Source: an uncultured Lachnospiraceae bacterium | GTDB taxonomy: Bacteria; Bacillota; Clostridia; Lachnospirales; Lachnospiraceae | DNA: 64,000 bases | Direction of reading: 5' to 3' | Assembly (NCBI GenBank): GCA_902796595.1 | Contig: CADBPM010000026.1 | Location: forward strand, 1 to 64,000 | In this document: positions 29,151 to 63,669 of the stretch, in pieces | Numbering within the stretch: the first letter of the stretch is position 1 | Layout of the letters: the number at the start of each line of letters is the position of its first letter | The notes under the pieces: model-generated | The model's database searches: none | The model's input: the letters and a program-made list of their open reading frames with translations, nothing else | Told to the model about the DNA's origin: nothing | Position numbers and translations under genes: made by a program

Positions 29151-29966
29151 TTAATATGTATATACAATTTCGCTATAGTCTTTTTCCTTCTTATAAACAG
29201 TATATCTTCTGTTTGCAGAGTACATCTGAAGATCGTACGTTACATCCACTATCTTCCACTCTGCAATATAAACGCTGTTCCATGCATGATATCCATTTAC
29301 ATTCGAAGTATAACCTGTTATGACTTTAGTCGGAATCCCCACACTTCTAAGCATGGACGCCATTAAAATAGAAATGTCATAGCAGATACCTTTTCTTTTT
29401 GAATAAATTATATCTATGTCGGGAATATAAGACAAACTTTTTGAAAGACTGTCAAGAATACTTAGTTTATCGAAATCATATTGATAATTTTTAACAATAT
29501 AATTATATATAGCATCAAACTTTTCCTTGTCAGTTTTCTTTCCTTTAGTTAAAGACTCCGCCTTTTTTATGGCTTTGTTGGTCTTTTCCCAATCCAATAT
29601 AATATTACTCGAAAGATATGAATCATGCTCGGAAAAATCTGTATTGATAGAAACTGTCTGAAATACTGAATATCTGGTTCCGGAAATATTCTTTGCAAGA
29701 ACAATCTTATAAGTTCCATCCCCCTGACAAAGTGGAACATCAACACTCACGCTGCCTTTTGATATGTCGTACTGGTACATCTTTCCACCAGACTGCTGAA
29801 CTAAAAGCTTAACTCTTGCATCATATCTGTTATTGAATTTAAAATGAATAGTTCCGTCTCCGTTGTCCGTTATCGAAGCTCCAGCTGCATTGGCCCTTTC
29901 TGGAATAATAATGAAGATAGCCAATGCAAAAAACAGCATAACAAAAAACCTTGAAATTCTGTTCAT
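29151..29966 (-). CDS. Secreted transglutaminase-like protein
   Basis: 271 aa from the ATG at 29966 (GGGGAG seven bases upstream). Signal peptide with cleavage probably after RANA. A beta-rich segment follows (about 30-120), then a transglutaminase core. The catalytic triad is visible: Cys in KRKGICYDIS, His in NGYHAWNSVYI and Asp in KIVDVTYD. It acts outside the cell, perhaps as a protease or cross-linking enzyme on wall or surface proteins; the substrate is unknown. A dispersed repeat and a candidate structured RNA lie in the 5' region. Confidence 0.85.
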   Translation of the reverse strand: MNRISRFFVMLFFALAIFIIIPERANAAGASITDNGDGTIHFKFNNRYDARVKLLVQQSGGKMYQYDISKGSVSVDVPLCQGDGTYKIVLAKNISGTRYSVFQTVSINTDFSEHDSYLSSNIILDWEKTNKAIKKAESLTKGKKTDKEKFDAIYNYIVKNYQYDFDKLSILDSLSKSLSYIPDIDIIYSKRKGICYDISILMASMLRSVGIPTKVITGYTSNVNGYHAWNSVYIAEWKIVDVTYDLQMYSANRRYTVYKKEKDYSEIVYTY

Positions 29967-29993: not shown

Positions 29994-30047
29994 CACCTTG
30001 TGTGATGAGCGATGGCTACATCTTATCACTTCGTGATAAGACATATG
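29994..30047 (-). repeat. Dispersed two-hairpin element, family 2, single copy
   Basis: Plus-strand view: an ATCAC/GTGAT hairpin, the linker GAGCGATGGCTACATC, then TTATCAC/GTGATAA with a TTC loop. The linker is the same as in the tandem copies at 63493-63669, but both stems differ in a paired way. Confidence 0.75.
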
Positions 30048-30071
30048 CCCAAAACGCCGTATGCCTTTCAT

Positions 30072-30250
30072 TTTGACTCCTAGCAAACGCCAGGTGGGTC
30101 TCCGCAGATCAGCCTCTGTCTACCAATATAAGAGGCACCTTGTGGTACATTATGGTGTGACATACACAGATAAATAATAGGAGTCCCGTTTAAAGTCATG
30201 TAGGCTCAAAATAATAAAGGCTCGCACGTCCCAGGCTATAATCAGTCAAA
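30072..30250 (-). ncRNA. Candidate structured RNA of about 180 nt, family not identified
   Basis: Its ends pair: TTTGACT (30250-30244) with AGTCAAA (30078-30072), then TAGC with GCTA. An inner helix GGGACTCC (30187-30180) / GGAGACCC (30103-30096) has one A-A mismatch. GCCTC (30136-30132) pairs with GAGGC (30116-30112). Two AGCCT strings can pair with the AGGCT loop as a pseudoknot. GACTCC can pair instead with GGAGTC (30080-30075), an alternative fold. A promoter places the 5' end exactly at the closing stem. 6S, raiA-type RNA or a new cis-regulator of the transglutaminase gene are possible. No long reading frame covers it. Confidence 0.6.
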
Positions 30251-30256
30251 TACAAT

Positions 30257-30285
30257 AATATCGGTATCGAAAGTACTGCTGTCAG
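30257..30285 (-). promoter_or_regulatory. Promoter of the candidate structured RNA
   Basis: CTGACA (30280-30285), 17 bases, GATATT (30257-30262), with TATTAT overlapping; predicted start near 30250. Confidence 0.5.
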
Positions 30286-30512
30286 TTTTCATCCCCGCTA
30301 TCATGATGCCAATGTTAAAAATATCTCACTGACCTAATAGTACATAGCATATTAGCTATACTGATGTTTCTGATAACTTATGCAGGTCATAAATTCTCAG
30401 ATCATTGCGCAAGCGCATAATCTGGACTTTTGCCCTTTGTATCTTATAATCATATTATACAGTATTATCAAAAAATTTCAAGGTTAAAATGTTATAATTG
30501 CTCAAAAAATAC
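30286..30512. other. Spacer after fhs with one strong hairpin
   Basis: CAGATCATTGCGC (30398-30410) / GCGCATAATCTG (30413-30424) forms a 12-bp stem with one bulge, about 90 bp after the fhs stop. It has no T-run. I see nothing else in this stretch apart from A/T-rich sequence. Confidence 0.45.
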
Positions 30513-63492: not shown

Positions 63493-63669
63493 GACAGATT
63501 ATAGAACCATTCGCTCATGAAAATCGCCTATCGGCGATGAGCGATGGCTGCATCTTATTGCTTTGCAATAAGACAGATTATGGAACCATTCGCTCATGAA
63601 AATCGCCTATCGGCGATGAGCGATGGCTACATCTTATTGCTTCGCAATAAGACAGATTATGGAACCATT
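63493..63669 (-). repeat. Tandem 79-bp repeats, family 2 element
   Basis: Two complete 79-bp units (63493-63571, 63572-63650) and the first 19 bases of a third. Each unit has a nested TCGCTCAT...ATGAGCGA / ATCGCC...GGCGAT hairpin and a TTATTGC...GCAATAA hairpin. The units are nearly identical. Confidence 0.9.
63498..63503 (-). promoter_or_regulatory. -10 box of the GT2 operon inside the repeat
   Basis: TATAAT on the minus strand, 31 bp before the ATG at 63467. The same position in the other units reads CATAAT. No good -35 box is visible. Confidence 0.35.

Follow-up and report, generated by a model that had tools for sequence, protein, structure and literature searches.

The window, which is the whole stretch of 64,000 nucleotides analysed here, carries on its reverse strand an RNA gene at 30043–30240 (-), preceded by fhs (PF01268) and, further upstream, by comEC. 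On its other side lies a secreted transglutaminase-like gene (29151–29966 (-); PF01841, E = 1.3e-20), whose start codon, picked by reading the sequence, is the ATG at 29966 that follows GGGGAG, 77 nt downstream of the RNA. Directly 3' of the RNA there is a dispersed 43-bp repeat (30004–30046 (-)), which holds a 9-bp perfect hairpin, TCTTATCAC-GAA-GTGATAAGA, at 30021–30041. The repeat recurs elsewhere in the genome, and two of the other copies lie close to each other in the last part of the window (63536–63578 and 63615–63657).

When the window is scanned with all Rfam families, the sole match above cut-off in the 64 kb is that of the 6S RNA family (RF00013), which cmscan aligns to the RNA gene from end to end (model positions 1–187 of 187) with 50.9 bits, the gathering score being 46.4. 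The RNA shares with the family model the closing stem, the P2 helix, the open central bubble, the apical arm, and the sequences of the bubble, and differs from it in a longer apical part (198 nt compared to 187 model positions) and otherwise in nothing of weight. This enlarged apical part is perhaps the reason why the score exceeds the threshold by just 4.5 bits. Several homologues in related genomes reach about 80–88 bits, with a maximum of 87.9. An RF00013 search finds the match in single copy in the genome of the window, and matches in 57 of the 61 genomes covered (this one and 60 relatives), above cut-off in 54 of them. Three of the relatives (G041, G056, and G028) hold two 6S RNAs each, which in G056 stand in tandem, about 50 nt apart. 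The locus also gives weak hits to snoZ13, SBRMV1 UPD, and the hairpin ribozyme, which score far below their cut-offs and were set aside as chance. Another contig of the same genome bears an S10-Clostridia ribosomal protein leader (RF03136, L130:2645–2742).

6S RNA is a well-known regulator that blocks RNA polymerase, mimicking an open promoter. The RNA of the window is almost certainly the single-copy 6S RNA of this Lachnospiraceae bacterium, that is, a long hairpin that would bind and restrain the sigma-A RNA polymerase and be released from it through the synthesis of a pRNA. An earlier, sequence-only reading of the locus had recognized a structured RNA on this strand, which free energy and covariation bear out, but had taken it to be undescribed, with the proviso that a clear Rfam hit would make it a known one; the RF00013 match above the gathering score is such a hit. 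The limits then proposed, 30072–30285, leave out some 30 nt from the 3' strand of the closing stem and take in some 45 nt upstream of the element, which spans 30043–30240.

The fold is supported both by the RNA itself and by its relatives. The predicted free energy of the window RNA is -62.1 kcal/mol, compared to -50.5 in shuffled sequences (z = -2.74), and its single-sequence MFE structure, computed without the family model, already agrees with the family fold in its closing stem, P2, bubble, and 3'-bubble hairpin. An alignment of 37 6S homologues (L002 was excluded, as its orientation was left unsettled by the motif test) was folded with RNAalifold, resulting in a closing stem, a second helix, P2, an apical arm, and an open central bubble whose 3' strand forms a hairpin; this canonical 6S fold is present in 96.7% of the cells of the alignment. 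Changes on both sides of a pair are found in 22 of the 44 pairs, amounting to 158 cells, a level reached by none of 500 shuffles, and none of six slid controls comes near the observed compensatory change. Conserved pairing, the absence of which had been named beforehand as grounds for rejecting the RNA, is thus present.

In the window, the closing stem (helix 1) is formed by a 5' strand at 30223–30235 (-) and a 3' strand, CGGC...UUUUGGG, at 30048–30059 (-), with 99.5% of cells paired and four pairs changed on both sides. P2, the helix adjoining the central bubble, pairs UUUUGA at 30206–30211 (-) with UCAAAA at 30071–30076 (-), and 98.6% of its cells are paired. The hairpin in the 3' strand of the bubble (helix 9; CCUGGC...GCUAGG, 30079–30094 (-)) is complete in 36 of the 37 homologues, with 98.2% of cells paired and three pairs changed on both sides. 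The paired ends and the inner helix recognized in the sequence-only reading are confirmed. A probable AGCCT/AGGCT pseudoknot, also proposed there, was rejected, as it is complete in only one of the 37 homologues, the sequence of the window itself.

The central bubble is nearly invariant among the 37 homologues, with GA(A/G)CCUACA on its 5' side and CCCACC on its 3' side. Within it, C41 and A42 are invariant, and C41, found in 37 of 37, corresponds to 30200 (-) in the window. This cytosine is predicted to template the first pRNA nucleotide; a pRNA started there would read GUAGGCUCAAAAUAA, beginning with GUAGGCUC. The pRNA of Bacillus subtilis is GUUCGGUCAAAACUA (PMC12005410), with which the predicted one agrees at 10 of 15 positions, both starting with G. 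The start of the B. subtilis 6S-1 pRNA at nt 40 (PMC8876501) likewise resembles the one predicted here at C41, and 6S-1 (bsrA) shares with the RNA of the window the preformed hairpin in the 3' strand of the bubble.

By virtue of the family to which it belongs, polymerase binding, pRNA synthesis, release, and a growth-phase role are expected of this RNA. Most likely, it forms a long hairpin whose open central bubble imitates a melted promoter, and it would bind the RNA polymerase holding the housekeeping sigma-A, restraining it under nutrient scarcity. Upon the return of nucleotides, the polymerase would template a short pRNA on the bubble, starting from C41, and P2 would thereby be opened. The freed 3' strand of P2 could then pair with GACUCCUA, so that the bubble would collapse and the polymerase would be released.

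The helix on which this last step depends consists of eight perfect base pairs between GACUCCUA (5' arm, 30185–30178 (-)) and UAGGAGUC (3' arm, 30082–30075 (-)), the latter overlapping the 3' strand of P2. It corresponds to the competing GACTCC/GGAGTC helix that had been noticed from the sequence, and its duplex energy in the window is -13.4 kcal/mol, compared to -8.9 for P2 by the same measure. Complementarity between the two arms is well conserved; all eight pairs can be formed in 15 of the 37 homologues, and the mean duplex energy across the 37 is -8.2 kcal/mol, compared to -4.8 with shuffled arms. Covariation, in contrast, is absent in this set, where 87.2% pairing is observed and 87.1% is obtained when partners are shuffled between species. 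In B. subtilis 6S-1, the opening of P2 by the pRNA frees its 3' strand for pairing to distal nucleotides of the 5' bubble, forming the central bubble collapse helix (PMC8876501), the position of which is matched by the alternative helix of the window. The two differ in the 5' arm, which in 6S-1 lies wholly in the 5' bubble, whereas GACUCCUA lies at the base of the apical stem and partly within it. Moreover, both arms are also held by other pairings, the 3' arm being used by P2 and by the hairpin of the 3' bubble strand as well. Given this competition for both arms, the position of the 5' arm, and the lack of covariation, a role of this helix in a release by collapse of the central bubble is no more than plausible. 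The earlier suggestion that the alternative helices fit a switch holds insofar as 6S RNAs refold during their pRNA-driven release (PMC8876501), but not in the sense of a ligand-responsive switch acting in cis.

The genes surrounding the RNA vary among its relatives. The order fhs-6S-transglutaminase is common only to the window and its sister locus L113, while L114 shows comEC-6S-transglutaminase, and L112 shows folC-6S, with no transglutaminase beside the 6S RNA (the neighbours in L112–L114 were named from their translations, without a family search). Folate genes stand beside 6S RNA several times within the genus, with folC in G001 (L112) and fhs in both G000, the genome of the window, and G004. 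In Escherichia coli, the 6S RNA gene ssrS is followed by ygfA. The adjacency of 6S RNA and a folate gene, which recalls this E. coli pair, is probably due to chance, and fhs as a general neighbour of 6S RNA is ruled out by the fhs loci of other Lachnospiraceae, where 0 of 34 have a 6S RNA of Rfam level nearby.

The 3' side of the gene bears on how far its transcript extends. As had been noted from the sequence, there is no T-run at the 3' end, and none of the T-run terminator type is found from there up to the start of the transglutaminase gene. Both RNAs might thus derive from one primary transcript, with the 6S RNA also forming the 5' portion of an extended transcript that runs into the transglutaminase, comparable to ssrS-ygfA of E. 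coli. Such an arrangement would be compatible with the identification as 6S RNA and would add to it. It is also suggested by the sister locus L113, where the ATG of the transglutaminase gene is no more than about 30 nt away from the end of the 6S RNA, with no visible promoter. However, the same picture would result from processing at the 3' end or from a terminator of atypical form, and the hairpin of the 43-bp repeat (30021–30041) sits exactly in this interval. On balance, read-through is a real possibility towards which we do not lean.

The missing terminator in the 77 nt before the transglutaminase start, the two mutually exclusive helices, and the presence of a transglutaminase gene after the 6S RNA also in L113 and L114 could be read in another way, namely as a riboswitch-like leader acting in cis on the transglutaminase mRNA and switching between the alternative helices. 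This is highly improbable, since the RNA is conserved over families of the order even where other genes lie downstream (as in L112, where no transglutaminase is adjacent) and its pattern of conservation is that of 6S RNA. In addition, L014 has a promoter-like sequence of its own, TTGCAT-TATATT, between the 6S RNA and the transglutaminase gene, and riboswitch families are absent both from the matches above cut-off in the 64 kb and from the weak ones at the locus. A raiA-type or wholly new structured RNA, to which merely the general look of a long paired intergenic RNA would point, can be dismissed almost entirely, as it is refuted by the full-length RF00013 match (with nothing else above cut-off), by the 6S scores of up to 87.9 bits among the relatives, and by the covariation on the 6S structure, and as the raiA model gives no match at the locus at E values up to 10. 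Among the three identities offered by the sequence-only reading, the one named first, 6S RNA, is therefore the one borne out by Rfam, while neither of the other two, a raiA-type RNA and a riboswitch, is represented by a family at its gathering score.

On the 5' side, the sequence CTGACA-17-GATATT at 30285–30257 (-), which had been regarded as a promoter pointing at the closing stem, does exist as a string, but it is a weak candidate that agrees with the consensus at 9 of 12 positions, and shuffled sequences yield 3.2 such sites per region. A better site, TTGAAA-16-TATAAT (11 of 12 positions), lies at 30481–30454 (-), about 215 nt upstream of the 6S RNA, and is probably its ancestral promoter. 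It resembles the TTGAAW-16/17-TATAAT promoters that stand no more than about 30 nt from the 6S RNA in the same-genus loci L113, L014, and L017.

The sequence between the TTGAAA-16-TATAAT site and the 6S RNA (30247–30450 (-)) is, according to its repeat matches and its fold, a divergent copy of a Clostridiales-1-type (RF01699) repeat. Its 5' portion of about 73 nt recurs at further places in the genome with 75–95% identity, and one of these, L128 1506–1664, matches RF01699 above cut-off, with 76.7 bits. The copy beside the 6S RNA, on the other hand, resembles the L128 copy at its beginning but has diverged in its 3' half, reaching 19.2 bits for RF01699, far below the cut-off. In its fold, a closing stem runs up to the border of the 6S RNA, and the predicted 3' border of the copy is taken from this. 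Back in 2010, RF01699 was listed merely as a candidate structured RNA (PMC2864571). The genome scans find at least 43 matches to it in G003, 32 in G006, and 47 in G007, and none in the sister genome G004; these copy numbers are lower bounds, as the scan detected a single weak match in the genome of the window and missed the L128 copy. With 13–47 copies in several related genomes, the family has the look of a mobile or repetitive intergenic element, and not that of a single sRNA gene.

The simplest reading of these observations, drawn from few sequences, would be that a Clostridiales-1-type repeat entered between the promoter of the 6S RNA and its gene. Such an insertion might have had consequences for expression: the 6S RNA would now be made either by way of a longer precursor or from a promoter that the element brought along, which would tie its output to the processing of the repeat RNA. 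We consider this consequence rather unlikely, though a longer precursor would not be strange, as a distal promoter and the processing of a precursor are also features of ssrS in E. coli.

The 6S RNA of this locus is thus a real finding, but an already known and ordinary one, and the dispersed repeat between the likely original promoter and the gene is its sole unusual point. The locus hereby receives its correct name and drops off the lists of new riboswitch candidates. RF01699 provides a small lead, since this element, with tens of copies in several relatives, seems able to enter the transcription unit of a regulatory RNA.
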